Below, one piece after another: positions 5,451-20,875 of a stretch of DNA of 43,305 bases; within the stretch, counting starts at the first letter, position 1; each line of letters starts with the position of its first letter. The notes beneath the pieces were generated by a model. It did no database searches and had not been told where the DNA came from. It saw only the letters and a program-made list of their open reading frames with translations. Source of the stretch: Pseudomonadota bacterium (GTDB lineage: Bacteria; Oederibacteriota; Muellerivitia; Muellerivitales; Muellerivitaceae); contig JAJPJW010000025.1 in NCBI GenBank assembly GCA_021324075.1, positions 1-43,305 of the forward strand, written 5' to 3'. The position numbers and the translations under genes are program-made.

Positions 5451-5852
5451 CTAATTTACCAGCAACAGGGTCCAAAGAGCCGCGTTGCAGGCATGTCCTG
5501 TCCAACAGACGCGGCATTCCAGCTTGTCGCGCAGGAGAATCCAGGCCAGCCAGAGGGTGAGGCCAAAAGCGAAGGTTGCGGCGCCCAAAAGCAGGGGATG
5601 GGGCCAGTGAAGGTAAAGCCCCAGACCCAGCAGGGGATAGTAAAAAACCCCGAACAGGGAATTGGGCGGGCCGAGCAAGGCGGCGTTCTTGGTGCGGAAA
5701 AGCACCTGGCAACCGCCCGCTTCCAGCTTGCAGACGTTGGGGCCGGTCAGGAAGGCCGGCAGAGTCCGGTAACGGCCATAAAGGGCGATGGCGGCCGCGA
5801 CGAATCCAATTCCCAATACCGTCCAAAGGATCAGCGCTAAGAGTCCTGTCAT
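5451..5852 (-). CDS. VKOR-family membrane quinone/disulfide oxidoreductase
   Basis: 133-residue integral membrane protein resembling the vitamin K epoxide reductase family, which uses quinone to make disulfides. Four elements match: a loop pair Cys41-x6-Cys48, a conserved Asn-Ser (N64-S65) in the PPNSLFG segment, a CxxC (Cys113-Arg-Val-Cys116) near the last membrane helix, and four hydrophobic segments. A further Cys122 follows the CxxC. Bacterial VKORs are often longer or fused to a thioredoxin domain; none is present here. The start ATG (5850-5852) overlaps the stop of the upstream acyltransferase gene as ATGA, so the two are translationally coupled. It is the last gene of the leftward operon. 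Confidence 0.8.
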   Translation of the reverse strand: MTGLLALILWTVLGIGFVAAAIALYGRYRTLPAFLTGPNVCKLEAGGCQVLFRTKNAALLGPPNSLFGVFYYPLLGLGLYLHWPHPLLLGAATFAFGLTLWLAWILLRDKLECRVCWTGHACNAALWTLLLVN

Positions 5853-6820
5853 GGTTGTACTCCCATCAAGGGCCAGACCACCCCGGCCAAAAAGGACCGG
5901 TGGAAGAGGAGGGGCAAGGGTGCGACGAGCCAAAAGAGAATCCAAGCCAGGCCCGCCCGACCCCGCAGCCTTATTCCCTTCGCTCCCATCCAGCGCTCTA
6001 AGATTACCAACCCGCCGTGGAGAAGGAAATAAGCCAGGGGGCCCCCATAACCTGCGTTGACCGGCAGGCTGATGGAAACCTCGTGCAGGATTCCCGAAAA
6101 TCCGAAAGCCCCCAGCAGCCCAACCCAGGCAGGAAAGGCTTTTTTCATCGGGCCATAGGCCGCCACCGCGGTCATTTCCCCGAAACCGATGTTCCAGCGA
6201 TGGGCCCAGAAATCCCCCAGGTTTTGGGCCTCAAAGGGATTCTGGAAAAGGGCGCCACAGTCGAATCCTTGCCGCCTCCAAAAAGCCGTGGCCAGGTTGA
6301 AGAGTCCGAAATGTACGGTCAGGCTGGCGCCGATGAAGAAGGGCGGGGTGGCCCAAAAAAGCGAAGAGGTCCTGCCCCAGAAGAAATGGGATAAAAAGAA
6401 GAAACCGGTGCCGGCCGCCAAAGCCATAAGGCCCTGAAGAGCATGTTTGCCCCAACCGGGCAAAGCTTGGGCGGCCCGCTTTCGGAAAACCGCAGGCTGC
6501 ATTCCGGGCCAGGCCAGGGCAAAGGCCAGATAGCCGGGAAAGGGCAGGGAGGATTCCTCGGGAGCCGGGTTTACGGCCAAGACCGCCTTCATGCCCAGAA
6601 GGACCGCCCCGATGAGGGAGAGCATCCGGAACCCAGCGGGGGAAGTGAGGGTGAAGAAGTTCGCCGCAGTTGTTCCCGCCAGCATCAGGCCCCAGGCGCG
6701 AAGGCGGGCCCGGGCCGGGTTGTCCAGCAACTGGAGCCCGTAGCCCGCCACTAATACCATCAGCAGCAAGGCGCCCATCTGCGCCAGGGCCAAGGGGTTT
6801 GCCGGAAAGTAAGCGTCCAT
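5849..6820 (-). CDS. MBOAT / wax-synthase-like membrane acyltransferase
   Basis: 323-residue polytopic membrane protein with about eight hydrophobic segments. Two motifs place it near the wax ester synthase branch of the MBOAT family: the NPFEAQNLGDFWAHRWN block (about residue 205), typical of the FWxxRWN signature, and a distal histidine within a membrane helix in SGILHEVSISLP. Family members move an acyl chain from acyl-CoA to an alcohol or lipid acceptor; the acceptor here is unknown. The ATG at 6818-6820 is chosen because it comes 2 nt after the stop of the preceding gene, consistent with the tight packing of the operon, and because the longer frame would run deep into that gene. Wax synthesis should not be assumed. 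Confidence 0.72.
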   Translation of the reverse strand: MDAYFPANPLALAQMGALLLMVLVAGYGLQLLDNPARARLRAWGLMLAGTTAANFFTLTSPAGFRMLSLIGAVLLGMKAVLAVNPAPEESSLPFPGYLAFALAWPGMQPAVFRKRAAQALPGWGKHALQGLMALAAGTGFFFLSHFFWGRTSSLFWATPPFFIGASLTVHFGLFNLATAFWRRQGFDCGALFQNPFEAQNLGDFWAHRWNIGFGEMTAVAAYGPMKKAFPAWVGLLGAFGFSGILHEVSISLPVNAGYGGPLAYFLLHGGLVILERWMGAKGIRLRGRAGLAWILFWLVAPLPLLFHRSFLAGVVWPLMGVQP

Positions 6821-6822
6821 GG

Positions 6823-7227
6823 TCAGCCTCCGGTCGCGGTAAGAAACCCGTAAACCGCCGTCAAATAGGTAAAGAGACCCACCAACGATCTTTCCGCAAA
6901 GATCCATTGGCCCCCTTTGGGCCGGATGGAGCGGTCATAATAAAAAAATTGGATGAGCAGCCTCGCCCCCCAATAAAGGGTGATATAGCCGGCCACCGCG
7001 CGGGCCAGGGGTGCGCCGTCCAGGAGCCATTCGGGATGAAGACAGGAAAGAAGGCCCATCAACAGGTTAGTGGCCCAGATATAAGCGGCATAGGTATGGA
7101 AAAGCTGGCGAACAATGGGACGCATCCGCTTCGTGTCGCGGGCCCAATGGAGCACCCTGGGAACCGCCAGGCTGGCGAAGGCTAGGCCGATTTGGCCTAA
7201 GCCGGCTAGGATCAGGAGCATCTTCAT
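6823..7227 (-). CDS. Small integral membrane protein of unknown function
   Basis: 134-residue protein with four predicted membrane helices: starts at LLILAGLGQIGLAFASLAV, then around YAAYIWATNLLMGLLS, a third around AVAGYITLYWGARLL, and LVGLFTYLTAVYGFL at the end. I do not recognise the family. Its start codon overlaps the stop of the COQ7-like gene (ATGA at 7224-7227) and GGAGGTG lies upstream, so it is coupled to that gene. Polar residues inside the membrane segments (Tyr-Tyr-Asp after helix three) could line a lipid or quinone pocket, but this is speculative. Confidence 0.75.
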   Translation of the reverse strand: MKMLLILAGLGQIGLAFASLAVPRVLHWARDTKRMRPIVRQLFHTYAAYIWATNLLMGLLSCLHPEWLLDGAPLARAVAGYITLYWGARLLIQFFYYDRSIRPKGGQWIFAERSLVGLFTYLTAVYGFLTATGG

Positions 7228-7760
7228 GGCCGCACCTCCTGCCGGATTTTTCGCATCGGCGGCCCCCAGCGGAGGACCCATTGGACCAGGGGCAGCAGGG
7301 GGTGTCCCTCTACCTTGTTCATAAAGAAAAGCTCATGCTCCCGCTCGGTTGCGGTCATGGCATGGAGCTCCCGGGCCATTTCCTTCAAACCCAGCTTCCG
7401 GGCGTGATAGGCCGCGTCCTCATATTGGTCCACGTTGCCGAATTCGAGGCGCCCGGCGAAATACATGGGGAAGAACCAGCCGCTGACCGGGCAAAGGGCC
7501 CCTAAGACCGCGCCGACGGTCCCAATGGCCATTTCCAGGGGGAAGAAGGGCTTGCCGCCCAGGGCGGTCAACATGCGTTTCACCGCCGCCCGGTGCACCC
7601 ATTCCTCCTTCTCAATGCGGCGGATGCCCTCCACTTCGTCCGGCGTAGTGACGGCCTGCCAGTGGCCGTGGTAGGCCCGGGCCGCGCCCAGTTCCCCGGC
7701 ATGGGCGTATTGGAGGATCTCAACCAACTTCCTGCGGTGGAACTCCCTGTCCTTTTTCAT
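7224..7760 (-). CDS. COQ7-like ferritin-superfamily di-iron protein
   Basis: 178-residue protein with the metal-ligand layout of a ferritin-like four-helix di-iron carboxylate protein: Glu in GELGAARAYHGH, ExxH in EEWVHR, Glu in YEDAAYHAR and ExxH in EREHE. The order and spacing best resemble COQ7 demethoxyubiquinone hydroxylases, which hydroxylate a quinone ring at the membrane, and the middle segment (GTVGAVLGALCPVSGWFFPMY) is hydrophobic as in that family. No other ubiquinone genes are nearby, so a different lipid or quinone-like substrate is possible. The ATG at 7760 is chosen for AAGGAGGA a few bases upstream; an upstream in-frame ATG would lie inside the operator region. First gene of the leftward operon. 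Confidence 0.65.
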   Translation of the reverse strand: MKKDREFHRRKLVEILQYAHAGELGAARAYHGHWQAVTTPDEVEGIRRIEKEEWVHRAAVKRMLTALGGKPFFPLEMAIGTVGAVLGALCPVSGWFFPMYFAGRLEFGNVDQYEDAAYHARKLGLKEMARELHAMTATEREHELFFMNKVEGHPLLPLVQWVLRWGPPMRKIRQEVRP

Positions 7761-7858
7761 ACGGATCCTCCTTTTAATAAACCCATAAAGGGATCTGTAT
7801 AGTACCGATCCCATTATTTTTGTTCAAAGTACGAAGATCGGCACATAGGGCACCTTCG

Positions 7859-7933
7859 AATATTTGAACATGTTCAAATTATCACTTGACGCCGGGGCCC
7901 TGTCAAGCTAATATTTGAACATGTTCAAATATT
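7859..7933. promoter_or_regulatory. Divergent back-to-back promoters with twin palindromic operators
   Basis: Two copies of the palindrome ATTTGAACATGTTCAAAT sit at 7862-7879 and 7913-7930; the second extends to a perfect 24-bp palindrome (7910-7933). Their centres are 51 bp apart, about five helical turns. Rightward promoter: TTGACG (7886-7891), 17 nt, TAATAT (7909-7914). Leftward promoter: TTGACA (7906-7901), 17 nt, GATAAT (7883-7878). The two -35 boxes lie inside and each -10 overlaps one operator, so a bound dimer at either site would block one promoter. A half-site TGTTCAAA occurs at 7821-7828. The TetR protein at 8951-9637 is the likely binder; this is inferred from location. Confidence 0.85.
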
Positions 7934-7951: not shown

Positions 7952-8341
7952 ATGAACACGATTGTCATTACCTACCTGGTTTATGTAACCCTAAGCCTGG
8001 CCCTTACGGTCTGGGTGGCGCGGGTACTCTTCAAACACGGGGCGAGGTTTCTGGTCGACGCCATGGGTGGGGACAAGGAACTGGCTGATTCCTGGAACCA
8101 CCTGCTGGTGGTGGGTTTTTACCTGATCAACCTGGGCTACGTGGCCTTCAACTTGAAGGTGGGGACGCCCGTAGACAATCCCCAGCAGGCCATCGAGGTG
8201 CTGGCCCAGCAGATGGGGCTGGTATTGCTGGTCTTGGGCGCCATGCATTTCTTCAATCTTTACGGCATCAACCGTCTCCGCCGCAAAAAGACGGCCGAGG
8301 CGCAAGCCGCGCCGGTGAAGAAACAACTGAAGATGGTTTGA
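7952..8341 (+). CDS. Small integral membrane protein of unknown function
   Basis: 129-residue protein with three or four hydrophobic helices: an N-terminal one (IVITYLVYVTLSLALTVW), one around LLVVGFYLINLGYVAFNL, and one around MGLVLLVLGAMHFFNLY, followed by a basic cytoplasmic tail. I do not recognise a named family. AGGGAGG precedes the ATG. It is the first gene of the rightward operon, 19 nt after the second operator, so its expression should be under direct control of that site. Similar size and character to the membrane protein at 6823-7227 on the opposite arm, but without obvious sequence identity. Confidence 0.78.
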   Translation: MNTIVITYLVYVTLSLALTVWVARVLFKHGARFLVDAMGGDKELADSWNHLLVVGFYLINLGYVAFNLKVGTPVDNPQQAIEVLAQQMGLVLLVLGAMHFFNLYGINRLRRKKTAEAQAAPVKKQLKMV

Positions 8342-8351
8342 AAGGCAGGAT

Positions 8352-8954
8352 ATGCGGATCATTCTTGGACGATTCAACCTGGAGGACGAAAAGGTCCGGG
8401 CCGATTGGGGCCGGCGGGAATCCTCCGCCGACCTGGGGTTCAAGGGCCGGGGGAAACACGACCGGTACCAAATGGAGCTTCCCCCGGTCCCCGGGTGGCC
8501 CACGGAAAAACTTTTTAACTGGGCGGCCGACAGGGTGGCCTGTTACCAGGTTTTCCCGCCCAGCCGCATGAAGGCCCGGGTGGATGCGCCCGGGGGAAGG
8601 GTCGCCCGTGGCGCCACCATCCTGCAGGGGGTCTTCGTGGGGCCTTTCCGGCTCCGGATGGCCGACAGGGTTTTGGAAGTCTTCGAGGGCGGCAGCCGGA
8701 AGGAAAGATGGATGGGATTCACCTATGGAACCCTTGAAGGCCACGCGGAAAAGGGGATCGAAACCTTCCGGGTGGTTTGGAACAAGGCGGCGGGTAAGGT
8801 CCACTTCTCCATGGAAGCCTGGTCCCTACCGGGCCATTGGTTGGTGCGGCTTTTCTACCCCTGGGCGCGGTGGGTGCAGAAAAGGGCGGGAAGGGAAGCC
8901 ATGGATTATATGAAAGAACGGTTGGAAGGCTTCGGGAAAGGGGAAAAACCATGA
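8352..8954 (+). CDS. DUF1990-family protein
   Basis: 200-residue protein resembling the DUF1990 family, recognised by the FTYGTLEGHAEKGIETFRV segment (about residues 119-137) and the C-terminal FSMEAWSLPGHWLVRL block; no catalytic function is established for the family. The N-terminal half holds the family-typical VPGWPTEKLFNWAADRVACYQVFPP. Start ATG at 8352 has AAAGG upstream, 10 nt after the previous stop. Its stop overlaps the start of the TetR gene as ATGA (8951-8954), so regulator and DUF1990 protein are co-translated. DUF1990 next to a TIGR01777 epimerase-like gene suggests a shared pathway. Confidence 0.75.
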   Translation: MRIILGRFNLEDEKVRADWGRRESSADLGFKGRGKHDRYQMELPPVPGWPTEKLFNWAADRVACYQVFPPSRMKARVDAPGGRVARGATILQGVFVGPFRLRMADRVLEVFEGGSRKERWMGFTYGTLEGHAEKGIETFRVVWNKAAGKVHFSMEAWSLPGHWLVRLFYPWARWVQKRAGREAMDYMKERLEGFGKGEKP

Positions 8955-9637
8955 CCACGGAAAAAACAAAAACGGAAAAGATACAAAAGGCGGACAAGAC
9001 CCGGCGGAGGCTTTTGGAGATCTCCCTGGACCTTTTCCTCAAGCACGGCTACGAAAAGACCACCATGCGGGAAATCGCCAAGGCGGTCGGCCTGGCCCCA
9101 GGGGCGGCCTATTACCACTTCGAGGCCAAAGAGCACATCATCCAGGCTTTTTACGAGATGTCCTTTGAGGAACACCTGCCCGAGGTGGAGCGGGTGCTGG
9201 CCAAGGAAATGGACCTGAAGAAGCTCATCGCGGGCGTGACCCGGGCCCATATGACGATCGCGGAAAAATACCACGCCATCTCCAAGGCGCTCTTCGCCAC
9301 CGCGGGCAACCCGGACAACGTCCTTTCGCCCTTCAGCGCACAGTCCAAGGCCTTGAGGGACCGAAATATTGAAATCTACCGTCGGGTGATGGAGACCACC
9401 ACCAGCCCGGTGCCGGCCAAACTCAGGGAAAAGCTCCCCGAGATCCTCTGGATGTACAAGATGGGCATGATCCTCTACTGGATCTACGACCGCTCGCCCC
9501 GCCAGAGGAAAACCTTCCAGTTGATCGACCAGAGCTCCATCCTGATCGCCCGGCTCATCCGGCTTTCCAACCTGCCGCTCCTGAAGGGTTTTTCCGAGCA
9601 GATCGTGAAGATGTTCTACAAGTACAAGTTCTACTGA
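8951..9637 (+). CDS. TetR-family transcriptional regulator
   Basis: 228-residue one-component regulator. After a Lys-rich N-terminal stretch comes a TetR HTH (about residues 18-65): RRRLLEISLDLFLKHGYEKTTMREIAKAVGLAPGAAYYHFEAKEHI is read in overlapping pieces, with the recognition helix around VGLAPGAAYYHF. The remaining helices form a ligand-binding domain with no recognisable subfamily. Overlaps the DUF1990 stop as ATGA, and the TIGR01777 gene follows after 11 nt. Being inside the operon fits autoregulation through the palindromes at 7862-7879 and 7910-7933. A lipid or acyl-CoA inducer is plausible from the neighbours but unproven. Confidence 0.93.
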   Translation: MTTEKTKTEKIQKADKTRRRLLEISLDLFLKHGYEKTTMREIAKAVGLAPGAAYYHFEAKEHIIQAFYEMSFEEHLPEVERVLAKEMDLKKLIAGVTRAHMTIAEKYHAISKALFATAGNPDNVLSPFSAQSKALRDRNIEIYRRVMETTTSPVPAKLREKLPEILWMYKMGMILYWIYDRSPRQRKTFQLIDQSSILIARLIRLSNLPLLKGFSEQIVKMFYKYKFY

Positions 9638-9648
9638 GGAGGTCCGTC

Positions 9649-10557
9649 ATGCAAAAGGTCATCCTTGCGGGAGGCAGTGGGTTCATCGGCCGGGCCCTGG
9701 CCAAACGGTTCCTGGCCCAAGGGGACCGGGTGGCCGTTTTGGGGCGGGGTAGTACCGGCCCCGGCCCACAGGTGGAATTTATCCACTGGGATGGAAAAAC
9801 CCCGGGGGACTGGGCCCAATCCCTCGAAGGGGCGGACCTCCTGGTCAACCTGGCGGGCAAAAGCGTGGACTGCCGTTATAACGAAAAAAATAAAAAGGCC
9901 ATCCTGGATTCCCGGGTGGAACCCACCCGAGTGCTGGGAGAGGCGGTCGGCCGGTCCAAAAATCCGCCGAAGCTTTGGGTCAATTTGAGCACCGCCACCA
10001 TCTACCGCCATGCCGAGGACCGGCCCATGGACGACGAGACGGGGGAAATCGGAAGCGGGTTTTCCGTCAACGTGGCCACCGCCTGGGAAAAAGCCTTTTT
10101 CGACAGCATCACCCCCCGGACCCGCAAGGCGGCCCTTCGGGCGGCCATCGTCTTGGGGGAAGGCGGCGGAGTCTGGTCCCCTTTAAAAACCCTGGTGCGG
10201 CTGGGTTTGGGCGGCCCCCAGGGAAACGGCCGGCAGATGTTCAGCTGGATCCATGAGGAAGACCTTTTCGGGATTATCCGTTTCCTCCAGGTCCGTGAGG
10301 ATATGAGCGGTGCCGTCAATGCCGCGGCGCCCCATCCCCTGCCCAACCGCGAGTTGATGGCCGCCTTCCGAAAGGCCCTACACCGGCCCTTCGGGCTTCC
10401 CACCCCGGCCTGGCTTTTGGAAATCGGCGCTTTTTTGATCCGCACGGAGACGGAGCTGCTGTTGAAAAGCCGGTGGGTCCTGTCCACCCGCCTGGAAAAG
10501 GCCAGCTACCGGTTCCGCCACCCCGATTTGCGGTCGACCTTGGCGGGTCTGGCTTAG
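9649..10557 (+). CDS. TIGR01777-family NAD(P)-dependent epimerase-like protein
   Basis: 302-residue extended short-chain dehydrogenase/reductase of the TIGR01777 (YfcH/SDR39U1) group. The nucleotide-binding GGSGFIGRALAKRF is at residues 8-21, LVNLAGKSVDCRYN around residue 65 is diagnostic, and the ending with RFRHPDLRSTLAGL is typical of the family. A classic YxxxK is not present at the usual place (STATIYRHAEDR instead), as in other members. Substrate is unknown. The start is supported by GAGGAGGT upstream. It sits in the rightward operon after the TetR gene. Confidence 0.9.
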   Translation: MQKVILAGGSGFIGRALAKRFLAQGDRVAVLGRGSTGPGPQVEFIHWDGKTPGDWAQSLEGADLLVNLAGKSVDCRYNEKNKKAILDSRVEPTRVLGEAVGRSKNPPKLWVNLSTATIYRHAEDRPMDDETGEIGSGFSVNVATAWEKAFFDSITPRTRKAALRAAIVLGEGGGVWSPLKTLVRLGLGGPQGNGRQMFSWIHEEDLFGIIRFLQVREDMSGAVNAAAPHPLPNRELMAAFRKALHRPFGLPTPAWLLEIGAFLIRTETELLLKSRWVLSTRLEKASYRFRHPDLRSTLAGLA

Positions 10558-10575: not shown

Positions 10576-10992
10576 ATGCTGCAAAAGATCAGCCTGAGCA
10601 TCATGGTATTTACTTATCTCTTCGCGGGGCTGGCCCATATCGTCCGGGCCGACTACTACCTTGCCTTCATTCCCCTCTTCATCCCCCAGGCCCGGTGGCT
10701 GGTGCTCCTGTCGGGCGGGATCCAGATCCTGCTGGCGGTGCTTCTGGTCTTTCCAAAGACCCGCCGGGGGGCCTGCTATGGCATCCTGCTGCTTTGGAGC
10801 GTTTCCTTGCCGGTCAACTTCCTGATGGTCGCAAGCGGCGGAACCGGCACCGCCTACAACGCCTGGCAATTGGGGGCGCTCATCCCTTTCCATTTGCTCT
10901 TGATGTTTTGGGCTTTCGTCCATATCCGGATAGAGACCCGAAAGTCCAAACCCTCCCTGGGCTTAAACCTTCAATCCCTCGGCCGGGAATAA
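10576..10992 (+). CDS. DoxX-like membrane protein
   Basis: 138-residue protein with four hydrophobic segments. The opening (MVFTYLFAGLAHIVRADYYLAFIPLF) and the middle (WLVLLSGGIQILLAVLLVFPKTR) resemble DoxX-like membrane proteins, a group with proposed links to thiol or quinone redox. It lacks cysteines except one, so it is unlikely to form a disulfide-relay centre itself. 18 nt after the previous gene and same direction, so probably the last gene of the rightward operon; the ribosome binding site is weak. Downstream 10993-11238 holds no gene; a perfect 8-bp inverted repeat with a 2-nt centre (11082-11099) contains an SD-like sequence of unclear meaning. Confidence 0.7.
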   Translation: MLQKISLSIMVFTYLFAGLAHIVRADYYLAFIPLFIPQARWLVLLSGGIQILLAVLLVFPKTRRGACYGILLLWSVSLPVNFLMVASGGTGTAYNAWQLGALIPFHLLLMFWAFVHIRIETRKSKPSLGLNLQSLGRE

Positions 10993-20263: not shown

Positions 20264-20875
20264 TTATGATAGCGACGGCTGGGCGGCCGGGTTTCCCAAG
20301 AGCGCCGGCGTGTTCTCGACCATCTTCCAAACGGTGTTCGTCACTTCGTCCACCATCTCCCTCAAGTCCCGGGTGATCCAGCCCGAACGGCGAAGAAAGG
20401 GAACGCGGATGATGGCCCCGAAGACCAGGGCCACGGCCAGGTGGGTTTCCATGGGCCGCACCTCGCCGGACTTCTGGCCCTGCCCAATGACCTGGGCCAT
20501 GAGGTCCAGGGGCGTCTCGTAGTCGGGGGTCATGCGTCGCGCCGCGCTGTGCTCGGTGAGTAATAGAAAGGAACAGAGGGTGGGATTGGTCTCGTAAAGG
20601 TTGAAGCCCGCCTCCACCATGGAGCGGATGCGGCCCTTGGCGGTGGTTTCCTTCGAAAGGCCTTCCTTTAGGTGGTTCATGAAGACCACCAGGTTCTCGT
20701 GGAAGAGGTGCCAGGCCATATCTTCCTTGCTTTCGAAGTGGCGGAACATGGTGCCCTCCCCGGCGTTGGCCAGTTGGGCGATTTCCCGGGTGGTGGTGCC
20801 TTCGATGCCCTTTTCGACGAAGAGCTTCAGGGCCGCATCCAGGACGTGCTGTCGTTTGGCAATCGGTCTTGACAT
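20264..20875 (-). CDS. TetR-family regulator of the aas operon
   Basis: 203-residue regulator. The N-terminal HTH spans about residues 8-52 (VLDAALKLFVEKGIEGTTTREIA, recognition helix near NAGEGTMFRHF). The C-terminal part is a helical ligand domain. It is the first gene of the leftward transcript with the 26-codon ORF and aas, and is transcribed away from two hydrolase genes. The palindrome at 20907-20924 between them resembles the boxes of acyl-CoA-responsive TetR regulators such as Bacillus FadR, so control of lipid genes by acyl-CoA is a reasonable inference, not shown by the sequence. Confidence 0.92.
   Translation of the reverse strand: MSRPIAKRQHVLDAALKLFVEKGIEGTTTREIAQLANAGEGTMFRHFESKEDMAWHLFHENLVVFMNHLKEGLSKETTAKGRIRSMVEAGFNLYETNPTLCSFLLLTEHSAARRMTPDYETPLDLMAQVIGQGQKSGEVRPMETHLAVALVFGAIIRVPFLRRSGWITRDLREMVDEVTNTVWKMVENTPALLGNPAAQPSLS

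Follow-up and report, generated by a model that had tools for sequence, protein, structure and literature searches.

The 43,305-nt stretch of bacterial DNA analysed here (the window) carries, between two divergent operons, a module that very probably works as a two-way, autoregulated TetR operator-promoter element, in which a locally encoded, co-transcribed TetR-family protein represses both operons and thereby itself. The module consists of two identical palindromes and, between them, two interleaved promoters that face in opposite directions. It recurs in one other genus of the same family, represented by genome G005, and related one-way forms are found beside homologous regulators in many bacterial groups.

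Operators and Promoters

Two exact 18-bp palindromes of the sequence ATTTGAACATGTTCAAAT are present at 7862–7879 and 7913–7930, with a centre-to-centre distance of 51 bp, as the original prediction had described them (0.00 expected by chance in shuffles of the window). They are designated here as the putative left and right operators; both are conserved in G005. Searching the genome for further sites, which had been proposed as a check, recovered no third exact copy in the 3.57 Mb, the next-best site having two mismatches in 16 positions. Such sole exact sites adjoining the TetR operon are as expected for a local regulator. A LexA-type box was rejected as the identity of the palindrome, since the Gram-positive LexA box is GAAC-N4-GTTC and the gap here is N2.

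Two sigma70-type promoters lie between the operators. The leftward promoter (7878–7906, minus strand) has TTGACA (7906–7901), a 17-nt spacer and GATAAT (7883–7878), and matches the consensus at 11 of 12 positions. The rightward promoter (7886–7914, plus strand) has TTGACG (7886–7891), again a 17-nt spacer, and TAATAT (7909–7914), matching at 9 of 12. Both had been called near-consensus with 17-nt spacers; this is borne out for the two spacers and for the leftward promoter, and the rightward one is just moderate. The pair occupies the same 37 bp (7878–7914) on opposite strands, divergent and interleaved, and its −35 regions form the inverted repeat CTTGAC-N11-GTCAAG (7885–7907, read from the sequence), both as predicted. 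By consensus match, then, 7878–7914 is an overlapping divergent promoter using both strands of the same DNA, and it is conserved in G005. Its −10 boxes are separate (7878–7883 and 7909–7914), rather than one −10 box shared by both directions. Promoter-like sites number 4 in 2.7 kb, with 0.7 expected.

Placed about 7 nt past the −10 boxes, the predicted +1 positions fall near 7871 on the minus strand and 7921 on the plus strand. The left palindrome is centred on the predicted leftward +1 and lies at about −50 of the rightward promoter; the right palindrome is centred on the predicted rightward +1 and lies at about −50 of the leftward promoter. The description of each −10 box as inside its own operator was overstated: each box adjoins its palindrome, the two sharing 2 bp, and it is the predicted +1 on which the palindromes centre instead. 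The predicted leader of the leftward transcript (7760–7871) is about 110 nt long in the window versus about 25 nt in G005.

Genes of the Two Operons

The left operon, on the minus strand, is tightly packed. Its first gene encodes a COQ7/ferritin-like protein (7224–7760; Pfam COQ7, 1e-7; G005 ortholog 73% identical), the start codon at 7760 having been picked by the ribosome-binding site and the G005 ortholog. It is followed by genes for a small membrane protein of no family (6823–7236; 71% in G005), an MBOAT_2 O-acyltransferase (5849–6907; Pfam MBOAT_2, 1.9e-7; 44% in G005) and a VKOR-family protein, which is probably the last of the operon (5451–5885; Pfam VKOR, 7.9e-10; 65% in G005).

The right operon, on the plus strand, has short or negative intergenic gaps. 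It starts with a gene for a 129-aa membrane protein (7952–8341), homologs of which adjoin the module in many phyla, and continues with a DUF1990 protein (8352–8954; Pfam DUF1990, 9.7e-29), the TetR-family regulator proposed as the repressor of both promoters (8951–9637; TetR_N 1.8e-13, TetR_C_23 7.3e-19), a TIGR01777-family oxidoreductase (9649–10557; NCBIfam TIGR01777, 7.2e-78) and, probably as the last gene, a small membrane protein (10576–10992; 40% in G005), whose MauE match (E 0.0025) is under the Pfam cut-off. Judged by family names, the genes of the two operons may serve chemistry of membranes, lipids or quinones/redox reactions.

The regulator has a TetR-type helix-turn-helix at its N terminus, with TetR_N above the Pfam cut-off, and a C-terminal ligand-binding/dimerisation domain, recognised by TetR_C_23 and by a full-length match to PDB entry 3c07. 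The operon that contains this gene has its predicted +1 at the centre of the right operator, which is, by sequence, the arrangement of an autoregulated module. A second, distantly related TetR-like gene is present at 20558–20857 on the minus strand (27% over the helix-turn-helix part).

Related Modules and the TetR Clade

Bacterial genomes were searched with a degenerate DNA pattern consisting of GAACNNGTTC, TTGAC and GAACNNGTTC at a spacing of about 51 bp. The pattern matched 72 contigs, with about 2 expected by chance in a simple equal-base estimate. It left the flanking bases free, and T/A bases were nevertheless found at all four flanking positions in 59 of the 72 contigs (0.3 expected), so most of the 72 are taken to be real sites. 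Likeness of the GAAC/GTTC core is no evidence, since the contigs were selected by it; the flanks, TetR adjacency and the clade count. An ORF for a homologous TetR is present on 46 of the 72 contigs, mostly immediately downstream of the promoter or no more than about 1 kb away. The contig DNA examined for the other 26 showed no TetR relative, and some of their sites may belong to other regulators or lie far from their own. Scanning genome contigs with a peptide pattern for the TetR yielded no confirmed relative. In the acidobacterial loci L085 and L116, modules lie directly 5′ of an unassigned 303-aa gene and of a gene that matches PEMT phospholipid methyltransferase; no TetR relative was found on the contig DNA examined for these two.

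A tree was built from 48 module TetRs, including those of the window and G005, and 28 other TetRs. Forty-one of the 48, with the window's among them, form one clade (support 95/97), whose members belong, by record titles, to seven or more named groups: Acidobacteria, Myxococcales and other deltaproteobacteria, Planctomycetota, Nitrospinaceae, Leptospiraceae, Bdellovibrionales and Streptosporangiaceae. TetRs adjoining a different operator, TAGAACNNGTTCTA, fall outside this clade, so that regulators sort together with their operators.

COQ7-like genes are transcribed divergently from the module in two Nitrospinaceae, and TIGR01777-family oxidoreductase genes also adjoin modules in L053, L088, L099 and L111. 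The 129-aa-type proteins are a family of small (about 110–130 aa) membrane proteins, recurring beside this TetR clade in many phyla and having no match in Pfam or NCBIfam; homologs of the 7952–8341 product occur in L051, L059, L062, L065, L066, L068, L080, L082, L087, L089, L095, L099, L107, L110, L111, L118 and L122.

Bracketed promoters with sites of TAGAACNNGTTCTA type (L067, L097, L101 and L115; hosts Lachnospiraceae, Neisseria, a bacterium and a deltaproteobacterium) adjoin TetRs that belong to other clades and differ in the recognition helix. In alphaproteobacterial contigs, mostly from Rhizobiales, the bracketed promoter is the same and has GAACCGGTTC cores (L070, L071, L083, L093, L108, L112, L117 and L121); no TetR relative was detected near them, and here the layout may be used by a different regulator.

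Spacing and Helical Phase

Spacing was surveyed in 396 genomes, sampled evenly across the phylum to which an Acidobacteriaceae contig belongs, by collecting palindrome pairs with centres 30–60 bp apart and with no −35 condition, alongside a reversed control. The survey gave 22 pairs in 20 genomes, and the control gave 0. In 21 of the 22 pairs the spacing is 47–58 bp (mean 53.8, sd 2.5); in the first module set, collected with the −35 in the pattern, it is 48–53 bp. Exact phasing is not conserved among these relatives, since 47–58 bp spans a full helical turn, and this spread argues against strict helical phasing as a general rule. The original placement of both sites on one face of the helix is weak in the window as well, where 51 bp is 4.86 turns, or about 51 degrees off exact same-face. 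The conserved property seems to be room for a promoter between the sites, with the distance following promoter length.

These data bear on whether the operator-bound dimers loop the DNA, or contact each other cooperatively on one helix face, so that the 51-bp spacing would itself be functional. The spacing is about five turns and is exactly 51 bp in both two-way modules, those of the window and G005, and looping is documented for the overlapping divergent promoters of pLS20, over a distance of 75 bp in which the spacer is bent (PMC4207663). Yet the spacings of the relatives cover a full turn, a 51-bp loop would have to be strongly bent (a bend is required for short loops, according to the pLS20 authors; PMC4207663), and a distance shared by two related genomes may reflect common descent. 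Looping is possible in this module, though not needed, and we consider it unlikely; simple occupation of the two operators by the local TetR would suffice.

Conservation and the Two-Way Form

Both strands of 96 modules were scored, a count that is approximate because a few of them are probably chance matches (e.g., L061, L078 and L094) and some loci contribute extra close-spaced pairs. Good promoters on both strands were found in the window and G005 only (2 of 96), and on this count the possibility of a common two-way form was rejected. The "unusually clean design" of the original prediction is thus justified as regards the two-way form, which is confined to this genus and one other among the 96 modules.

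In G005, whose TetR is 72% identical to that of the window, the 61-bp module recurs and is flanked by the same pair of genes. The two modules align in register. Their −35 cores are identical, the middle 11 bp agree at 4 positions, and the 10-bp arms agree at 10/10 in one case and 6/10 in the other. The palindrome cores agree at 9/10 and 8/10, every difference lying within the two unconstrained bases at the centre. The intergenic DNA outside the module aligns poorly. The G005 promoter facing the COQ7-like gene is TTGACA-17-GATAAT and that of the other arm is TTGACC-17-TATATT (10/12); in both genomes the stronger promoter faces the COQ7-like arm. The alternative of a single genuine promoter, the leftward one, with a fortuitous rightward match and a right operon that starts elsewhere, would fit the 9/12 match and the one-way form of most related modules. 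It is decidedly unlikely in view of the G005 equivalent, which stands at the same place in a better form with the same 17-nt spacer, and of the ribosome-binding site and first gene of the right operon, which follow the predicted start by about 30 nt or less.

Of 45 genomes surveyed in the phylum, the same two, the window's and G005, carry the module, the COQ7-like gene and the 129-aa gene, and full-length TetR orthologs are found in these two and no others. Six same-family genomes examined had neither the module nor the TetR. This co-occurrence of the module with this particular TetR, in the phylum and across groups, together with the lack of a third exact site in the genome, makes it very improbable that the palindromes are operators of another regulator encoded elsewhere and that the adjacent TetR is incidental, even though the genome has further TetR-like genes and some module contigs have no TetR relative nearby. 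Such comparisons of sequence give strong support to the local TetR as the probable binder of the palindromes. Repression of both arms by this protein, as originally predicted, likewise gains strong comparative backing from the co-occurrence, from the clade that tracks the operator and from the second genus.

The general element is one-way, and the two-way form looks derived, with a second promoter fitted to the opposite strand of a symmetric frame; we infer this direction of change. On balance we favour the broader view that in one TetR_C_23 clade, spread over the named groups listed above, an invariable operator-promoter-operator arrangement (TGAACNNGTTCA near +1 and near −50) controls an uncharacterised set of genes of membrane, lipid or redox type, and that the present lineage made this layout two-way through a second promoter on the other strand.

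Proposed Mechanism

Taking the palindromes, the promoter matches and the gene order as read from the DNA, we infer repression, release by a ligand and competition between polymerases in the following form. TetR produced from the right operon would bind each palindrome as a dimer. Each bound dimer would cover the start of one promoter and the DNA just upstream of the −35 box of the other, RNA polymerase would be excluded from the intervening 37 bp, and both operons would be off. The releasing ligand is plausibly a lipid or another hydrophobic molecule, because of the kinds of genes regulated. As each −35 box lies within the spacer of the other promoter, one polymerase at a time could be accommodated, and release may be followed by competition between the arms, to the advantage of the stronger leftward promoter. 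Activation of one arm from about −50, a position where activators can sit and near which each operator does lie relative to one promoter, combined with repression of the other arm, is the least probable reading, since with identical sites in mirror symmetry binding at either would also cover the +1 of the other promoter, and the good spacers of both promoters should make an activator unnecessary.

Significance and Comparison with Known Systems

For a widespread and apparently undescribed TetR clade, the module supplies a testable operator, regulator and regulon. It suggests how a promoter repressed in one direction, with a site on either side, can turn into a two-way switch through the gain of one further promoter, and it could serve in gene circuits as a compact, symmetric repressed promoter with two outputs. 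Nothing in bacterial gene control is overturned by it. Divergent promoters with TetR operators are already known; for this TetR clade, no account of the bracketing layout turned up in the open-access literature examined. The open-access papers searched also gave no functional description for the TetR_C_23 domain or for the operator or function of the 3c07 relative, and no bacterial TetR operator with this sequence or its degenerate forms. PDB 3c07 is a putative TetR regulator of Streptomyces coelicolor, presumably SCO4850, and is related in sequence to the window TetR over its full length (E 1.9e-49); its deposition is solely as a putative regulator.

In Tn10 tetA/tetR, two palindromic operators lie close together within overlapping divergent promoters. 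The module resembles this system in its TetR-family repressor, two palindromes, overlapping divergent promoters and predicted control of both the repressor itself and the opposite gene. It differs in that its operators stand outside the promoters, 51 bp apart and each on one start, with a single mirror-arranged promoter pair between them.

The Pc/Pr promoters of pLS20 are also overlapping and divergent, and are controlled by RcoLS20, a tetramer that binds repeated CAGTGAAA motifs in operators 75 bp apart, with looping proven (PMC4207663). They differ in this from the palindromic bracket of the present module. An experimentally studied parallel is Escherichia coli acrA/acrR, where the TetR-family auto-repressor AcrR represses both RNAs of a bidirectional promoter, at which polymerases can compete (PMC12825309). 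TetR-family auto-repression in both directions is the likeness to the module, where it is predicted from sequence. The two systems differ in the promoters, which in acrA/acrR share one −10 box between the directions (PMC12825309), whereas the module has separate, interleaved −10 and −35 boxes.
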